This document shows, in pieces, positions 15,109 through 23,685 of a stretch of 64,000 nucleotides of DNA. Each line of letters begins with the position of its first letter. Positions within the stretch are counted from its first letter, which is position 1. Both the position numbers and the translations under genes were made by a program. Origin of the DNA: Olsenella porci (lineage in GTDB: Bacteria > Actinomycetota > Coriobacteriia > Coriobacteriales > Atopobiaceae); the NCBI RefSeq assembly GCF_009695875.1, contig NZ_VUNC01000001.1, forward strand, positions 1 through 64,000. Reading direction: 5' to 3'. Below the pieces are notes generated by a model. That model ran no database searches. It saw nothing but the letters and a program-made list of their open reading frames with translations, and had not been told where the DNA came from.

Positions 15109-16158
15109 TTAGGACTCCCGGCGGGCGAGCCTGCAGACAAGCACGCGTGGCCTGTGGGTCAGGTCCTCGCGAACCTCCACCGACTCCCACTCGCCCGTCT
15201 CGCGCGCAAGCGCCGCCGCATCGTCGAGCGATCCCTCGTACAGCTCGACGCAGAACATGCCGCCTGGGGCGAGCGCCTTGGGAGCAAACTCGAGGAGCCT
15301 CCTGAACACATCGAGCCCATCCTCCCCTCCGTCAAGCGCGAGCGCGGGCTCGTGGTCGCGCACCTCGGAGGGCACCTCGTTGGCGAGTACCTTGGTGGGG
15401 ATGTACGGGGGGTTGGAGACCAGTACAGAGAACGTCCCCATGAGCTCCCGGTCCACGCCAGAGGCGAGGTCGCACTCCACGATGGTGACTGCATCCTGGA
15501 GCGAGAGGGCATCCCGGTTGCGCGTTGCGAGCGCAATCGCCTTGGGCGAGAGGTCCGTTGCCACGACGCGGGTTCCCGGCCGCTCGCCTGCGATGGAGAG
15601 CGCGATGCACCCCGTGCCGGTGCCCACCTCGAGAACGCGGCAGCCGGCGGGAAGGATCTGGCGCGGCTCGCCGCGCACCTCTCCCCCAGCTTCGCCGCCG
15701 TCATCGACCTCGGACTCGTCCCCCGTACCTGATGCCTCCCCGGCGTCAGGCCCCTCCCCCTCGGAGGGCTCGTGGTCTGGCATCTCCCCCATGACCGGCG
15801 GAAACGTCATCGGCGCCGCATCTACGCCCTCAAGAGCGGCGTCGACCAGGATCTCGGTCTCGGGCCGGGGGATAAGGACGCCCTCCTCGCAGCGCAGGAC
15901 GATGTGACGAAAGGGCATCTCGCCCGTCACGTACTGGAGGGGCTCTCCCCTGCCGCGCCTGACGACAGCCTGGTGCATGCGGTCGAGCTCGTCACGCATC
16001 AGCGGACGGTCGAAGTCCATGTAGACCTGCACCCGCGAGAGGCCCGTGACGTTACACAGCAGCCACTCGGCAGAGAGGCGCGGGCGCTCGTCGCCCTTGC
16101 GCTCCAGATAGCCCTCAGTCCACCTAAGCATCTTGCCAACGGTCCAGGTCTCCGCCAC
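15109..16158 (-). CDS. prmC: Release factor glutamine methyltransferase with acidic insertion
   Basis: PrmC (HemK) methylates the glutamine of the GGQ motif in release factors, here most directly the product of the preceding prfA. The N-terminal helical domain (1-110) and the SAM-dependent methyltransferase domain with VGTGTGCIALSIA (178-190) and NPPY (249-252) are intact. Between them, residues about 111-167, is an unusual Gly/Glu/Asp-rich insertion. The protein is 349 residues against the usual 280-290. The start is GTG at 16158 with GGAGGGG upstream. Confidence 0.95.
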   Translation of the reverse strand: MAETWTVGKMLRWTEGYLERKGDERPRLSAEWLLCNVTGLSRVQVYMDFDRPLMRDELDRMHQAVVRRGRGEPLQYVTGEMPFRHIVLRCEEGVLIPRPETEILVDAALEGVDAAPMTFPPVMGEMPDHEPSEGEGPDAGEASGTGDESEVDDGGEAGGEVRGEPRQILPAGCRVLEVGTGTGCIALSIAGERPGTRVVATDLSPKAIALATRNRDALSLQDAVTIVECDLASGVDRELMGTFSVLVSNPPYIPTKVLANEVPSEVRDHEPALALDGGEDGLDVFRRLLEFAPKALAPGGMFCVELYEGSLDDAAALARETGEWESVEVREDLTHRPRVLVCRLARRES

Positions 16159-16191
16159 AGACACTCCCCTCCGATTCACTCGTCCCCAACC

Positions 16192-16243: not shown

Positions 16244-17311
16244 TTACACGGTCTGGGCGAGCTTCTCCGCCCTGTCCGCCGCGGCGAGCGCCTCGATCAC
16301 GGAGCCCAGCTGGTCTCCCAGCAGGACGCCGTTGTACGTGGAGTTGAAACCGATGCGGTGGTCGGTCACGCGGTCCTGGGGCTGGTTGTAGGTGCGAATC
16401 TTCTCGGAGCGGTTGCCATGACCAATCTGGCTCATGCGCTCGGCACCCTGCTCTGCCTGCTGCTTCTCCAGCTCCATCTGGTAGAGCCTTGCGCGCAGCA
16501 TCTCCATGCAGACCGCGCGGTTCTGAATCTGGGAGCGCTGGTCCTGCGACTGGACCACCGTGTTGGTGGGCAGGTGGGTGATGCGCACCGCCGAGTAGGT
16601 GGTGTTGACGCCCTGGCCGCCGGGGCCAGAGGAGCAATAGGTATCGATCCTCAGGTCCTCGGGATTGATCTTGATGTCAATGTCCTCCGCCTCGGGAAGC
16701 ACCGCCACCGTTGCCGTGGAGGTCTGAATGCGGCCCTGGCTCTCGGTCTTGGGGATGCGCTGCACGCGGTGTACGCCGCTCTCGTACTTCATGACCGAGT
16801 AGACCTTGTCGCCGGTGACCTTGAACTCAATCGTCTTGAAGCCGCCCGCTTCGCCGGGGCTGCTGGAGAGGACCTCGGTCTTCCAGCCGCGGGACTGGGC
16901 GAAGCGCTCGTACATGGCATAGAGGTCACCCGCGAAGATGGCCGCCTCGTCACCGCCGACGCCGGCGCGGATCTCGACGATGGTGTTTTTCTCGTCGTTG
17001 GGGTCACCGGGGATGAGCATGATCTTGATCTCGTCTTCGAGCGAGGGGAGCTTCCCCTCGTTGGAGGAGATGTCCTCCTGGAGCATCTCCTTCTCCTCGG
17101 GATCCGAGGTCTCGTGCATCATCTCCTTGGCGGCATCGATGTCGTCGAGCGCCTGGACGTACTCTCGCGCCTTGGCAACGAGGTCGGCTTGATTGGCGTG
17201 CTCCTTTGCGATTCTGGCGTATTCCTTGGGATCCGACACAACGGACGGGTCCAGCATCTTTTTCTCAAGCTCCTCGTACGCCGCGATGAGCTTCTCGAGC
17301 TTGTCTCGCAT
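16244..17311 (-). CDS. prfA: Peptide chain release factor 1
   Basis: RF1 (355 residues) ends translation at UAA and UAG. The catalytic GGQ is at residues 231-233 in SSGPGGQGVNT. The codon-recognition tripeptide is PKT at 187-189 (PxT is the RF1 signature, against SPF in RF2). The N-terminal helical domain and C-terminal domain are complete. The start at 17311 has GAGGAG upstream and begins MRDKLEKLIAAYEEL. A TAGACT -10-like element lies upstream near 17378 but the promoter is not convincing. Confidence 0.97.
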   Translation of the reverse strand: MRDKLEKLIAAYEELEKKMLDPSVVSDPKEYARIAKEHANQADLVAKAREYVQALDDIDAAKEMMHETSDPEEKEMLQEDISSNEGKLPSLEDEIKIMLIPGDPNDEKNTIVEIRAGVGGDEAAIFAGDLYAMYERFAQSRGWKTEVLSSSPGEAGGFKTIEFKVTGDKVYSVMKYESGVHRVQRIPKTESQGRIQTSTATVAVLPEAEDIDIKINPEDLRIDTYCSSGPGGQGVNTTYSAVRITHLPTNTVVQSQDQRSQIQNRAVCMEMLRARLYQMELEKQQAEQGAERMSQIGHGNRSEKIRTYNQPQDRVTDHRIGFNSTYNGVLLGDQLGSVIEALAAADRAEKLAQTV

Positions 17312-17492
17312 GTGGGTCTCCTCGATGCGGCCGCGGCGTTGTGCGGTGGCGCGGCATAGATGTTCAGCATGGGAAAGTCTACCACCAAGGGGATATTCGT
17401 AGTCAGGCGGTGGGATTGCGGGGGCGTATGGAGGCGGGCGGCACACGGAAGCAACACCGCATGCCACCCGGACGATGCCTCCCTTAGCCCAG

Positions 17493-19241
17493 CTAACTCG
17501 TCTCGCTCGCCTTGATAAACGCAACCTGGTAGCGCTGTTTGAGCCACTTGACGGTATTGGGCGTGCGACTCTCGCTCAGGGTGAACGTGAGGACCTGATA
17601 GTCGTACGTCCCAGGCATAGTCGCCCCCACCGAGAGGGACGCGGCGAAAGCGGCGTCGTCCGACCCCTGGAGGCCCGAGACCGCCCATGCACCATGCGCC
17701 CTGACATCCTGCTCGAGGGCGGCCTCGAGCGCCTTGTAGTCTGTGACGGGGATGGATTCGCTGTGCCAGGTGATCGCGTCTGACGACGGGCAGTAGTCAA
17801 GGCTCACGTCAGTGGCGCTCGTGTCCTCGATCAGAGAGCGCCGGAGCATGGAGCACGCCGCGTCGGACGCCGCCGCGCTCTGAAGGAACGACCGAAAGAC
17901 ACTCCCCATGGACTCCTTGTCCGACAGGCTCTTGGACGAGAGGTCGATTGCGTACTCTCGCCTGATGAGGGTTCCGTCCCTGAGGGTGTAGGCGATGTCC
18001 ACCGTGTTGTAGTCGGACGAGCCATCCGCGAGGTTGGTGGCGCCGCTCGCAACAAGGGACTTATGAAGGCCCACCACCTGGCTGATGCCCTCGCGAGACT
18101 CGAACGTAAGACTGGGGTTGTTGACCGACACGCTCTTGACGTCATCCACGGAGGGGACGTACCTCACCACGCCCATCGCATCGGTGGCGCAGCAGACGGC
18201 GAATGCGGCACTAACCGCAACGGTGACCGCCAGGCCGGCCTTCCTGCCCCGGAGTGCCGTGATGCCGCCACCCACGCCCGCCTCGGCGACGCAGTACACC
18301 AGCGCGCAGCTCGCGACCACCACCGCCCCAACCACGAGTGGGCTGCCCGCTACGAAATCGACGAACAGGGCGAGGATGACGAGAGACACGCCCAGGCCGG
18401 CAGCGAGTGCAAACAGGACGCTCGCCACCTCGTGGACGGGCCGGAACGCAAAGGCGTCCCCCGCCCTCTCGAGGTCACGCCGTGCGGACAGCTCCGTGGC
18501 GACCACGGTGCAGACGACGCCCACGAGGGCGTATGCCAGGAGCACCCGCCATGGGACCCTGCCGCTCTGGAAGGAGCTCAGGCTGCGGACGAGGTAGACC
18601 GCAGGGGATGCCCAGGCGAGCGAGGGGAACGAACCGTCGACGACGCTCGGGGCAAGAATGGAGACAACCTGCCGAACCCCCCACTGCACCACGGCGACAT
18701 ATCCGTTGACCATGCAGAACAGCGTCGTCGCAACCGACGCCCGTCCAGACACCACCATGCAAAGCGACGCGATGCCACAGAACGTGACGCACATGAGCCC
18801 CTGCTCGGCAAACCACACCAGCACATCCATGGGACCGATTGCCGCCATGCCGCCAAGCACCAGAAGTAGCAGGGCAAGGACCAGGTTGGCCAGGAGGAGG
18901 GGGACAAGGGAGGCGAGGAGCAGGGAGCGGAAGAGCGGCCTTCGCCTGATGGGGAGCGAGCCGTAGAAGGGAGCGGCAACGCGGTCGAAGGCAAAGTTGA
19001 AGTTTCGCAAAACCGCCGCATAGGAGGCGACGAGGGTGAGGAACACGCCGAGGACGGATGAGAAAGCGAGAAGCTGCTGCCCTCCCGCCTCCATGCCACC
19101 GTCTGCCATCGCCCTGCCGCGATATAGCAGCGAGAGGAGCGGGACCAGCCATATGAGCAGGTATGCCGCCGCAACGTGGGCACGCCTCAGGCAGGCGTCC
19201 CCAAAGATGCCGATGCTAGAGGACGAGGTCCTTGAGCTCAT
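17493..19241 (-). CDS. ABC-2 type transporter permease with large C-terminal extracytoplasmic domain
   Basis: A 582-residue membrane protein. The first about 370 residues hold roughly 10 hydrophobic helices (for example LLIWLVPLLSLLYRG, LLLASLVPLLLANLVLALLLLVLGG, ALVGVVCTVVATEL, VTVAVSAAFAVCC). A polar domain of about 210 residues then reaches the C-terminus and is likely outside the cell. This layout matches permeases of GntR/YtrA-controlled ABC exporters, possibly the DUF6449 type. The start at 19241 lies within the ATPase gene (26-bp overlap) and has GGGAGG upstream. Substrate is unknown; envelope stress or antimicrobial peptide export is a guess from relatives. Confidence 0.8.
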   Translation of the reverse strand: MSSRTSSSSIGIFGDACLRRAHVAAAYLLIWLVPLLSLLYRGRAMADGGMEAGGQQLLAFSSVLGVFLTLVASYAAVLRNFNFAFDRVAAPFYGSLPIRRRPLFRSLLLASLVPLLLANLVLALLLLVLGGMAAIGPMDVLVWFAEQGLMCVTFCGIASLCMVVSGRASVATTLFCMVNGYVAVVQWGVRQVVSILAPSVVDGSFPSLAWASPAVYLVRSLSSFQSGRVPWRVLLAYALVGVVCTVVATELSARRDLERAGDAFAFRPVHEVASVLFALAAGLGVSLVILALFVDFVAGSPLVVGAVVVASCALVYCVAEAGVGGGITALRGRKAGLAVTVAVSAAFAVCCATDAMGVVRYVPSVDDVKSVSVNNPSLTFESREGISQVVGLHKSLVASGATNLADGSSDYNTVDIAYTLRDGTLIRREYAIDLSSKSLSDKESMGSVFRSFLQSAAASDAACSMLRRSLIEDTSATDVSLDYCPSSDAITWHSESIPVTDYKALEAALEQDVRAHGAWAVSGLQGSDDAAFAASLSVGATMPGTYDYQVLTFTLSESRTPNTVKWLKQRYQVAFIKASETS

Positions 19242-20587: not shown

Positions 20588-22006
20588 CTACCGGGACGCC
20601 AGTCCCTCCCCCATGAGGAGGCCCATGACACTTGACATCATGAGGCCGCGCGTCCAGCCGCTCGAATCGCCCAGGCAGTGGAGGCCCTCCACGTTGGTGT
20701 CGAGGTTCTCGTCCATGCTGACCTTGTTGCTGTAGAACTTGAGCTCGGGTGCGTAGAGGAGCGTCTCCTCGGCGGCAAAGCCCGGAACCACTTGGTCGAC
20801 GGCCTTTATGAAGTTGACGATCTCGATCATCGCCCGATACGGGATAGCAGCGGTGATGTCGCCGGCCTCGGCGTCGGGAAGCGTGGGCACGAGGTTGGAG
20901 CGCGAGAGCTCGCGCGGCCAGGTGCGCTTGCCGTCGAGGATGTCACCGAACCGCTGGACCAGGATGTGGCCCGCACCGAGCATGTTGCACAGGCGCCCCA
21001 CCATCTGTGCGTAGAGGATGGGCTGGTCAAAGGGCTCGCGAAAGTTAAACGTGCACAGGACCGCGAGGTTGGTGTTGTCGCTCTTGCGCTCCTTGTAGCT
21101 GTGGCCGTTCACGACGGCCAGGCCACCGTCGTAGTTCTCCTGACTCACGAAGCCGCCGGGGTTCTGGCAGAAGGTGCGAACCTTGTTGCGGAAGGGATTG
21201 GGGTAGCCTACGAGCTTGCTCTCGTAGAGGACGTTGTTGACGTTCTCCATGACCTCGTTGCGGACCTCGACGCGCACGCCCAGGTCGCAGGGGCCGGCAG
21301 AGTGCCTGATTCCATGGCGCTCGCACATGTCGTCAAACCAGCTCGCCCCACGGCGGCCGGTAGCGACCACGGTCTGCGCCGCGCGTATGGCAACGGCGTC
21401 ACCCCCTGCCGTCGGGCGCACCATAGCGCCGCGACACACACCGTCCTCGACGAGCACCTCCACGCACTCGTGCTCGAAGAGGATCCTGACCCCCGCATCC
21501 AGGAGAGCGCGCTCGATGGTCGCATAAATCTGCTGCGCCCGCTCGGTCCCCAGGTGACGGATGGGGCAGTCCACGAGCTTGAGCCCCGCCTGGATGGCCC
21601 GGCGACGGATGTCCGCGACCTCCCTTGGGTGCCCCAGGCCCTCTACGTGCGGGTCGGCTCCAAAGTCAAGGTACATCTGGTCAACACGCTCGATGGTGGA
21701 CTGCGCGAGTCTCTCCCCTATGAGCTCGGGCAGGTCTCCCCCAACATGACACGACAGCGAGAGCTTGCCGTCCGAAAACGCACCGGCACCCGAGAAGCCC
21801 GTGGTGATGCGGCACGGCTTGCAGTCCGCGCAATGGCCCAGGCGCTCCTTGGGGCAGCTCCGCCGCTCGATGGGCAGGCCCTTCTCCACCATGGTGATGG
21901 AACCGGAAAAGTGGGACCGAATGAGTCCAAGGGCGGTGAATATCCCAGCCGGTCCGGCGCCTATGACGAGGACGTCCGTCGAGGAGGGTATGCGCTGAGC
22001 GACCAT
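20588..22006 (-). CDS. FAD-dependent oxidoreductase (NAD(FAD)-utilising dehydrogenase family) with cysteine cluster
   Basis: A 472-residue flavoprotein. The dinucleotide-binding motif DVLVIGAGPAGIF is at residues 11-23, and a C-terminal GLHCLGDSSGWTRGLM closes the FAD site. Four cysteines (51, 59, 62, 65; C-x7-C-x2-C-x2-C) precede RITTGFSGAGAFSDGKL. This arrangement is typical of the family and could hold a metal or Fe-S centre, although this is not established by sequence. The start at 22006 follows AAAGGAG. The gene stands alone and is divergent from the next gene. The substrate is unknown. Confidence 0.85.
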   Translation of the reverse strand: MVAQRIPSSTDVLVIGAGPAGIFTALGLIRSHFSGSITMVEKGLPIERRSCPKERLGHCADCKPCRITTGFSGAGAFSDGKLSLSCHVGGDLPELIGERLAQSTIERVDQMYLDFGADPHVEGLGHPREVADIRRRAIQAGLKLVDCPIRHLGTERAQQIYATIERALLDAGVRILFEHECVEVLVEDGVCRGAMVRPTAGGDAVAIRAAQTVVATGRRGASWFDDMCERHGIRHSAGPCDLGVRVEVRNEVMENVNNVLYESKLVGYPNPFRNKVRTFCQNPGGFVSQENYDGGLAVVNGHSYKERKSDNTNLAVLCTFNFREPFDQPILYAQMVGRLCNMLGAGHILVQRFGDILDGKRTWPRELSRSNLVPTLPDAEAGDITAAIPYRAMIEIVNFIKAVDQVVPGFAAEETLLYAPELKFYSNKVSMDENLDTNVEGLHCLGDSSGWTRGLMMSSVMGLLMGEGLASR

Positions 22007-22019
22007 TGCTGCTCCTTTC

Positions 22020-22048
22020 GTGCGACCACGTGATTGTATCAGTCGCAC
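22020..22048 (-). promoter_or_regulatory. Inverted repeat spanning the oxidoreductase promoter
   Basis: GTGCGAC and GTCGCAC form 7-bp perfect arms around a 15-bp spacer, which contains TACAAT on the minus strand, a good -10 match. The position just upstream of the oxidoreductase gene suggests an operator that covers its promoter. No regulator is identified. Confidence 0.45.
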
Positions 22049-22153
22049 GCCGAGACACTACGGGGGTCACGGCGGGGCGGGGACGGGTTGGCGCTACCCT
22101 AGGGGAGACTGAAAATCGGGCGCACGCGCCCGAAGGAATGGAGAGGAGCGGCC

Positions 22154-23044
22154 ATGGCCGCGGGAAAGCACTTTGCAGGCAGCAGGCCCACCCTTTCTGA
22201 TGAGGAGGTCGATGCCGTCGTTCGCTCGGCAATGGAGCGGGCACGCAGGGCAGCGGAGGAACCCCTCTACACGCTCTCCAGCTACGAGCCCGTTAAGGTG
22301 AGCGTTCGCGTCCCCTGCGTCACGGACGCCCAGGTAGACCTTGCCCTCTCCTCCATGGCACAGCAGGCCGGGGCGGACGAGTCCCGGCTCTCGGATGCCG
22401 ACTGGGTGCGCCAGGCCTTTGGCGCGCGCAGCCTCGACGAGCTGCGCGCGGGCGTGAGGAACGACCTCCTGGCCTCCAACATGCACGACGCCGACCGACG
22501 GAAGGGCGCGCTCTGCCTTGCAGAGCTTGCCTCCAGGCTCCAGGAGGAGGTCCCCGAGCAGGTGGTGGACGAGATGCGCCAGGGCATGCGCGCTGGACTC
22601 GAGCAGGACCTGGCGCAGAGCGGTCTCACGGTGAAGGAGTTCTGCGAGCAGACCGGAACCCCCAGGGAGGACCTGGAGCAGAGCCTTGCCAGCCAGGCGC
22701 GCGAGGCTGCGACCCAGGGGGCAGCCCTGGACGCCTACGCAAGGGAGAGGGGACTCTCCGCGAGCGAGGGGGAGTGGCCACGGCTGCTCGGAATCCCGCC
22801 GGTGCAGCTGGCGGAGGTGGCGAGGCAGGCGCGGGCCAACGGGAACTACGAGGCGCTCGCCAGGACGGCGCTCCGCAACAAGACTGCGGACATCGTAGTC
22901 ACGGAATGCGACTGCACATACAGCTACGAGACGCCGCAGGAGGCGGAGGACCGGCTGCAGAAGATGCTTCGCGACGGCAATGGAACGGTCACGCCCGGTC
23001 CCATGGGGACGAGCGGGCTCGACGCCAGCCTACCCCTGGTGTAG
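22154..23044 (+). CDS. Trigger-factor-like chaperone domain protein lacking the PPIase domain
   Basis: A soluble, highly charged 296-residue protein. Residues about 75-225 resemble the trigger factor C-terminal (SurA-like) helical domain: a SLDELRAGVRNDLL segment like SLEELRxxVRE, then VPEQVVDEMRQGMRAGLEQDL, LTVKEFCEQTG, REDLEQSLASQAREAA and LDAYARERGLSASE. The N-terminal ribosome-binding domain signature and the FKBP-type PPIase domain are absent; the first 75 residues match only the strand PVKVSVRVPCVTDAQVD that precedes them. It is not the housekeeping trigger factor. A protein-holding role is inferred. The start at 22154 follows GAGGAG. Confidence 0.65.
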   Translation: MAAGKHFAGSRPTLSDEEVDAVVRSAMERARRAAEEPLYTLSSYEPVKVSVRVPCVTDAQVDLALSSMAQQAGADESRLSDADWVRQAFGARSLDELRAGVRNDLLASNMHDADRRKGALCLAELASRLQEEVPEQVVDEMRQGMRAGLEQDLAQSGLTVKEFCEQTGTPREDLEQSLASQAREAATQGAALDAYARERGLSASEGEWPRLLGIPPVQLAEVARQARANGNYEALARTALRNKTADIVVTECDCTYSYETPQEAEDRLQKMLRDGNGTVTPGPMGTSGLDASLPLV

Positions 23045-23159: not shown

Positions 23160-23606
23160 CTACTCCGCGGGGGTCTCCTCGGCGGGAGCGGCCTCGGCAA
23201 CGGTGGCCTCGGCGGTCTCGGCCTCTGCGGCCTCCTCGGCAGCCTTCTTGGCAGCCTCTGCCTCGGCCTTCTTGGCGTACTCGGCGGCACGCTTGGCCTT
23301 GGCGGCAGCCTTTGCCTCGGCGGCAGCCTTGCGGGCGGCCTCCTCCTCGGCAGCCTTCTTGGCCTTGGCCTCCTTGGCAGCCTTTGCCTTTGCGAGCTGG
23401 GCCTGGGCGGCGCCACCAAACTTGTCGGAGAAGCGCTGGACGCGTCCGCCGGTGTCAACGAGCTTCTGCTGACCGGTGTAGAACGGGTGGCACTTGTCGC
23501 AGAGGTCGATGGTCATCTCGCTCTTGGTGGAACGGGTGACCCAGGTGTTGCCGCAGGTGCAACGGACGGTGCACATCACGTAGTCTGGATGGATGCCTTG
23601 CTTCAT
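23160..23606 (-). CDS. rpmE: 50S ribosomal protein L31 with long Ala/Lys/Glu-rich C-terminal extension
   Basis: Residues 1-64 are a normal zinc-type L31: [10 protein letters not shown], the ligands Cys16, Cys18, Cys36 and Cys39 (CTCG and [10 protein letters not shown]), and [11 protein letters not shown]. Normal L31 stops near here at 66-75 residues, but this protein runs to 148 with about 84 residues made almost entirely of A, K and E, turning acidic at the end. The start at 23606 follows AAGGAG; the open frame extends to 23732 without a ribosome site. The tail is probably helical and surface-exposed on the ribosome. Confidence 0.93.
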
Positions 23607-23685
23607 ATGGGACTCCTTCGATCGGCCTGGTTTCCGACCAGGCGAGGGGTTGCCTCGACCCGTGCCGAGACAGTCAAGCTTTGCG

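Follow-up and report, generated by a model that had tools for sequence, protein, structure and literature searches.

What might a trigger factor do when it has neither the domain that binds the ribosome nor the PPIase domain? The question is raised by an open reading frame in the 64,000-nucleotide stretch of Olsenella porci contig NZ_VUNC01000001.1 analysed here (the window), whose product we call TFC, for stand-alone trigger-factor (TF) chaperone domain protein (Table 1). The sequence-only reading of this DNA held that the protein keeps the helical substrate-binding part of TF, lacks the ribosome-docking and FKBP domains, and could be a free holdase or an adaptor. The first two statements hold up well. 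In Pfam, Trigger_C (PF05698) is found in TFC at E 8.1e-13, with 49.2 bits where the cut-off is 22.7; three other Pfam names listed for it lie far under their cut-offs, and no Trigger_N, FKBP_C or SspB (PF04386) match appears in Pfam at E up to 10. The NCBIfam tig model (TIGR00115) aligns through its C-terminal part alone (profile 242-369 of 410) and scores below its cut-off. A local TF N-domain profile that finds the tig of the same genome has no match in TFC, and neither has a local profile of the TF P-domain (PPIase), which is present in that tig (L002). Because Pfam FKBP_C also misses the complete TF of this genome, we base the absence of a PPIase domain on size, structural model and local domain profile, and not on Pfam alone: such a domain cannot fit, since only about ten residues lie between the linker helix and the start of the C-domain, and the AlphaFold2 model contains no FKBP-like part.

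The helical part is not all that was kept. Alignments and the structural match show that the TF linker strand is retained as well; in full-length TF, the strand and helix corresponding to TFC residues 36-71 join the ribosome-binding domain (RBD) and the PPIase domain. Where the window protein has its N-terminal helix, other relatives align with a short KPxPLxxG lead-in. Inspection of the sequence by eye revealed no signal peptide. That TFC is a real gene, encoding a TF linker strand and a TF C-domain from which RBD and PPIase are gone, is well supported. At the end of the C-domain lies a conserved (C/A)xC-T-Y segment (window 22907-22921). A metal site there was considered and found unsupported: both cysteines occur in 26 of the 45 sequences in which the segment could be located, and the first is often replaced by A or S.

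Table 1. Features of the TFC locus, in window coordinates.
Feature	Position	Strand	Basis
prmC, retained near TFC in relatives	15109..16179	-	TIGR03534
prfA, retained near TFC in relatives	16244..17524	-	TIGR00019
FAD-dependent oxidoreductase, divergent neighbour, not part of the system	20588..22048	-	Pfam FAD_binding_2, FAD-depend_C
Probable ribosome-binding site GGAGAGGAG	22140..22148	+	Sequence upstream of the TFC ATG
TFC gene (296 aa, ATG start, stop included in coordinates)	22154..23044	+	Open reading frame; Trigger_C match; relatives
N-terminal helix, aa 16-34	22199..22255	+	AlphaFold2 DSSP; alignments
TF linker strand and helix, aa 36-71, YTLSSYEPVKVSV..VTDAQVD	22259..22366	+	Alignments; model aligned with TF from residue 113 onward
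TF C-terminal chaperone domain with arms, aa 75-258	22376..22927	+	Pfam 93-207; model against 1w26, 2nsa, 1zxj
Conserved ET..EA..R segment and last helix, aa 259-273	22928..22972	+	Conservation among relatives; AlphaFold2 model
Variable linker, aa 274-292	22973..23029	+	Low model confidence; linker lengths and charges
C-terminal tail LPLV-COOH, divergent copy of the family [LF]-[KRH]-L-V	23030..23041	+	Broader motif in 44/47 distinct TFC
rpmE (bL31), convergent neighbour common to many relatives	23160..23612	-	TIGR00105

The AlphaFold2 model of TFC, built with 48 sequences, has a mean pLDDT of 90.3 and a pTM of 0.78. Residues 282-296 fall below 50, and the variable linker is probably disordered, judging from the model. 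Among solved structures, E. coli TF (1w26_A) matches best: at Z 12.0 and over 203 residues, its positions 113-422 align with residues 37-259 of the model. The ranking descends from TFs (Z 12.0 to 9.1) through the TF C-domain 2nsa (7.1) and MPN555 (6.9) to SurA (6.6), all within the range (Z < 13) in which, the structural aligner warns, helical proteins may share no more than a common arrangement; it is the ranking itself, together with the Pfam match, that makes the TF fold credible. Foldseek also returned TFs, at modest E-values of 1.8e-4 to 4e-2. When solved structures were searched by sequence alone, no TF came up within E 1 and two unrelated proteins matched weakly, so the structural claim is carried by the fold match. 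This search used a profile from alignment A3, which leaves out L132 (at a contig end) and L133-L137 (a separate Eggerthellales clade); A4 comprises 34 of the 48 A3 rows, and A1 omits L022 (a 54-aa fragment with an internal TAG) and L025, L026 and L029, which belong to other families. Comparison with the TF C-domain and SurA had been proposed from the sequence, and both are among the matches. A cryptic PPIase fold, also considered, appears in neither the model, the structural matches nor the profile search. The VIA-align list for the model holds no SspB-like structure, an absence that carries little weight.

A full-length tig, for which the sequence-only reading advised a search, lies elsewhere in this genome (2.36 Mb, 98.95% complete). 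TFC is on contig C1, and the second Trigger_C locus above the cut-off, on contig C13, encodes a 451-aa protein that scores as tig (TIGR00115; 258.6 bits against 180.2), carries GFRRGHAP and lies ahead of clpP and clpX. Many bacteria have their TF gene next to those of ClpXP. The genome thus holds one complete TF and, beside it, a second homolog without the ribosome-binding motif (a GFRxGxxP-type N-domain), which is the configuration of the duplicates we refer to as RBS-less.

The gene opposite TFC is indeed a divergent FAD-dependent oxidoreductase, as first noted, but a functional link between the two was rejected: this neighbour varies, whereas prfA/prmC or rpmE are more constant. One or both of these occur within the stretch examined in 19 of 21 neighbourhoods (20 relatives and the window), the exceptions being L042 and the out-group L054; in the window itself, an ABC/GntR/FAD-oxidoreductase block separates TFC from prfA. 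Heat-shock control was likewise discarded, as no CIRCE or HAIR-like site lies upstream (9 and 5 mismatches, respectively, in the best candidates). The neighbouring bL31 protein matches L31 over residues 3-67 of 150 only, the remainder forming a long extension rich in Ala, Lys and Glu.

How widely is TFC kept? A family profile finds it in 71 of 140 same-family genomes and in 26 of 35 genera (E 5e-120 to 2e-46), and the next matches, from 3e-30, are full-length TFs. In a class-wide sample of 396 genomes, 52 match with E no higher than 1e-38, and every one listed belongs to the same family, so conservation throughout the class, raised as a check from the sequence, gives way to a family-specific distribution. 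Among the 53 loci of relatives are ones from Olsenella, Tractidigestivibacter, Kribbibacterium and many rumen and gut MAGs labelled Atopobiaceae or Coriobacteriaceae, and also five Eggerthellales/Coriobacteriia rows (L133-L137), which belong to a short clade of their own. Some genera carry the gene only in part (1/5 in g7, 3/5 in g28), and for 4 of the 71 genomes (G023, G107, G108 and G109) a stop is listed within the matched region, splitting the gene in G023. On both counts TFC looks dispensable, and both are what speaks for a decaying tig duplicate that has no distinct function. Yet the family forms one clade (support 99/96) with conserved position, core and tail, although its members are only 28-42% identical to the window protein. 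Conservation of this kind at such divergence argues for lasting selection, and we regard simple decay as very improbable.

The clade comes from a midpoint-rooted tree of 80 C-domains, some of whose branches are weak or long, in which nine Atopobiaceae short proteins group together. In the same tree, 39 ribosome-binding TFs and one PPIase-bearing row make up another clade (100/98), RBS-less paralogs of other families fall outside the ribosome-binding TFs, and the Eggerthellales short forms stand apart. The paralogs within the order can be placed in a graded series, from RBD-like forms without PPIase (L153, L155) through forms with PPIase and no RBD (L157, L158, L165) to the C-domain only.

Several other arrangements of TF genes came to light. 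The Eggerthellales short TF adjoins a second TF with GFRKGKAP (L147 1285-3766, L141 1576-4495, L135 5989-8811 and L137 4015-6765), and two tandem RBS-less full-size TF paralogs occur in one genome (L159 1876-4687, in G049). Some main TFs bear the ribosome-binding motif and have no PPIase domain by the local profile (L187 1700-2959, L171 1441-2784 and L188 1087-2298); from these sequences, the ribosome-bound main TF seems to have lost or eroded its PPIase domain in G005, G048 and G032. Multiple TF genes are reported in 390 of 15,241 TF-containing genomes, 367 of which keep only one with the motif (PMC11559001). Unlike the rule of one complete copy described there, G041, G053 and G051 each have two TFs that bear it.

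The feature that went unnoticed earlier is the C-terminus of TFC. The pattern [FLM]x[LMIV]V, followed by no more than one residue, closes 44 of 47 distinct sequences, most commonly as [LF]-[KRH]-L-V. Counted from the end, V occupies position -1 in 43, L position -2 in 43, K/R/H position -3 in 37 and L/F/M position -4 in 43; proline is found at -6 in 14 of the 44 motif-bearing proteins. The motif is absent from L099, L103 and L110 and, among the first 19 orthologs, also from L007, L008 and L017 (L008 and L099 are apparently the same contig). The window protein, ending in ASLPLV, keeps L-x-L-V without the basic residue or P(-6), and so fits the loose motif and fails the strict one. Ahead of the tail runs a linker of 7 to 45 residues, where its landmark could be located, with a charge (acidic minus basic) of -7 to +9.

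Could such endings be a general trend of these genomes? The strict pattern, [LF][KRH][LVI][VI](x), is found in 37 of the 47 TFC, compared with 0 of 220 neighbouring open reading frames and 0 of 39 ribosome-binding TFs; the loose motif occurs in 1 of the 220 and is absent from all 39. In 12 same-family whole genomes, the string F/L-K-L-V-stop closes a long open reading frame at TFC alone (nine TFC ends), one of the other matches being preceded by 6 open codons and the remainder reading TGG, not stop. These comparisons rule out a general C-terminal trend. Larger RBS-less TF paralogs in three of three genomes of another family end similarly, in GPHLQLV or GPKLILV. The Eggerthellales short TFs (L133-L137, L141, L147 and L149) have conserved hydrophobic ends of their own (FPDSFVSL, FVGL, FISL, FVNF), possibly another docking tail.

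A conserved hydrophobic or basic tail might act on its own protein. TFC may be a plain ribosome-free holdase with no dedicated partner, its tail serving as a pseudo-substrate for its own cleft or as a degron for its own turnover. TF binds hydrophobic segments, and the TFC tail is short and hydrophobic or basic. The tail of the canonical ortholog L087 is modelled with somewhat raised confidence, its last nine residues having a pLDDT of 59 with none below 50, values that are compatible with docking on its own body but do not demonstrate it. The Myxococcus RBS-less TF paralogs, moreover, all refold GAPDH and are reported to be retained by subfunctionalisation (PMC11559001). Weighing against this possibility, the last block reaches a pLDDT of just 59 in L087 and 33 in the window protein, and P-x-L-x-L-V is shared with the RBS-less paralogs of the other family, whose bodies differ, which would not be expected of a pseudo-substrate. 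We consider a partnerless holdase unlikely, although it is the strongest of the alternatives.

The tail may instead point outwards. Its sequence comes close to that of the peptide by which the adaptor SspB docks on ClpX (the XB tail), with the window's own ASLPLV a weak match. The E. coli SspB tail is GRPALRVVK, and others are GRPSLRVVK in Proteus, GKPSLKLVK in Legionella adelaidensis, ARPGLKLVK in Pseudomonas sp. FeN3W, KKPTLRILD in Acinetobacter and GRPALSVVVSN in Pseudomonas sp. Leaf58; SspB tails on eight viral contigs read RPVLTRIK, KPTLRVVK, KPKLRVVK, KPVLRVVK, RPTLTRIK or PSFLRLVK. TFC tails with the same pattern and no final lysine include ERPKLKLV, SRPPLKLV, GHPNLRLV, SHPHLRLV and VNPNLKLV. 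Scored against a profile made from 11 SspB tails, 30 of the 47 TFC tails exceed the best of the 220 neighbour C-termini, and those ending FTLV and FELV score poorly. The overall arrangement is also common to both proteins: a body that binds clients, then a flexible linker that varies, and P-x-L-[KR]-[VL]-V at the C-terminus. The bodies are unrelated, SspB having the PF04386 fold, of which TFC has no match, and TFC that of TF; most SspB tails close with lysine, whereas the TFC tail stops at V, and the SspB linker is acidic, whereas some TFC linkers are basic. SspB itself was not found in 30 of 30 relatives and was found in two controls. E. coli TF is not known to carry an XB-like tail.

Is there a receptor for such a tail? 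XB, the last ten or eleven residues of E. coli SspB, is reported to bind the ClpX N-domain (PMC3983244). The ClpX of this genome retains the zinc-binding N-domain (ZBD) and, in alignment, identical counterparts of F16 and I46 (numbered, on our reading, without the first Met), which is weak evidence for docking because the ZBD is conserved almost universally in ClpX. PMC7804408 makes the case that E. coli TF serves ClpX as an adaptor: its arm domain is reported to contact the ZBD at the site used by SspB and RssB, and ClpX F16 and I46 are needed for its effect on ClpXP; that TF is full-length and ribosome-bound, unlike TFC. PMC12373786 reports that an XB-eGFP fusion undergoes ClpXP-dependent loss and that, in E. 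coli, XB tethering alone can deliver a native target to ClpXP; it also states that XB acts regardless of its position in the chain. Lack of the lysine, or a shift of the end, may therefore be of no consequence. From the sequence comparisons, we infer that TFC may dock on ClpX.

A different partner could, however, account for a C-domain-only TF. TFC might be a secretion chaperone that keeps preproteins unfolded for SecA, as predicted for Mycoplasma MG_377/MPN555, with the tail binding SecA or another part of the translocase. For MG_377/MPN555, a TF homolog that consists of the C-domain alone, a strong contact with SecA is predicted (PMC13047044). Its structure is matched by the TFC model (1zxj_C; Z 6.9 over 150 residues, rmsd 5.2, 7% identity in the structural alignment), the C-domain-only make-up being common to the two, and SecB was not found in 30 of 30 relatives. 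SecA is therefore a serious rival to ClpX as the partner of TFC. In the neighbourhoods examined, however, no secretion gene stands beside TFC, and the tail resembles a ClpX-docking peptide. TFC is also missing from about half of the same-family genomes, whereas MG_377 is reported to be essential (PMC13047044). A role in secretion seems to us doubtful, a little more so than that of a holdase without a partner.

We therefore tentatively favour docking on ClpX, and assign a probability of roughly 45% to TFC being a soluble holdase that tethers its clients to ClpXP through an XB-like tail. TFC would be an old duplicate of TF in Atopobiaceae, freed from the ribosome by loss of the RBD and PPIase domains. 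As the sequence family and predicted fold suggest, its linker and C-domain cradle may hold unfolded or newly released clients, while the flexible linker would bear an XB-type peptide, recognisable by its conservation and likeness to that of SspB, that could dock on the ClpX ZBD. By this route the clients so held would be tethered to ClpXP and there unfolded or degraded, in the manner of SspB and the clients of that adaptor. The XB interpretation has its limits: the window tail is atypical, the final lysine is missing, proline at -6 is confined to 14 of 44, 3 of 47 TFC have no tail motif and short motifs can match by chance. The roughly half of same-family genomes that do without TFC were also counted against a ClpXP adaptor. 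It is somewhat less probable still, but conceivable, that a lineage of gut and rumen Actinomycetota in which no SspB is detectable built a ClpXP adaptor of its own from a trimmed TF duplicate and an SspB-like tail, wiring a general holdase to a protease. If so, recurrence of that tail on the RBS-less TF paralogs of another family would indicate a strategy used more widely among coriobacteria, whether by inheritance or by two separate origins. The original alternatives of free holdase and adaptor were a fair guess, and the conserved tail gives the second a concrete lead.

So, is TFC a new kind of protein? The TF-like chaperone fold is shared with the SurA core and PrsA-like chaperones (for SurA, over 110 residues). 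These are periplasmic or extracytoplasmic proteins that carry parvulin domains. Closer relatives show that a TF without an RBD is not unprecedented, should the first reading be taken to imply it. MPN555/MG_377 (1zxj; PMC13047044) likewise combines a TF C-domain lacking RBD and PPIase with a full-length Tig in the same genome, and differs in its reported essentiality and predicted SecA contact. Myxococcus MXAN_1178, _1713 and _6153 resemble TFC as extra RBS-less TFs beside one complete TF, but the common change among such duplicates is reported to be loss of the N-terminal domain (PMC11559001), whereas TFC also lacks PPIase and carries a conserved tail. Coriobacteria are not named in the main text of that paper, and the open-licence papers searched, in their accessible text, yielded no description of TFC or of an XB-tailed TF. 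We accordingly take RBS-less TF duplicates to be a known type, of which TFC, with its XB-like tail, appears to be a new form. The protease and ribosome roles of TF are hard to separate because TF also has tasks at the ribosome; a natural TF that has no ribosome part and carries an XB-like tail would, if our interpretation is right, isolate its role in delivery to the protease. It would also show that a TF duplicate can have a fate other than subfunctionalisation as a holdase, and extend to Actinomycetota the tethering principle of SspB.
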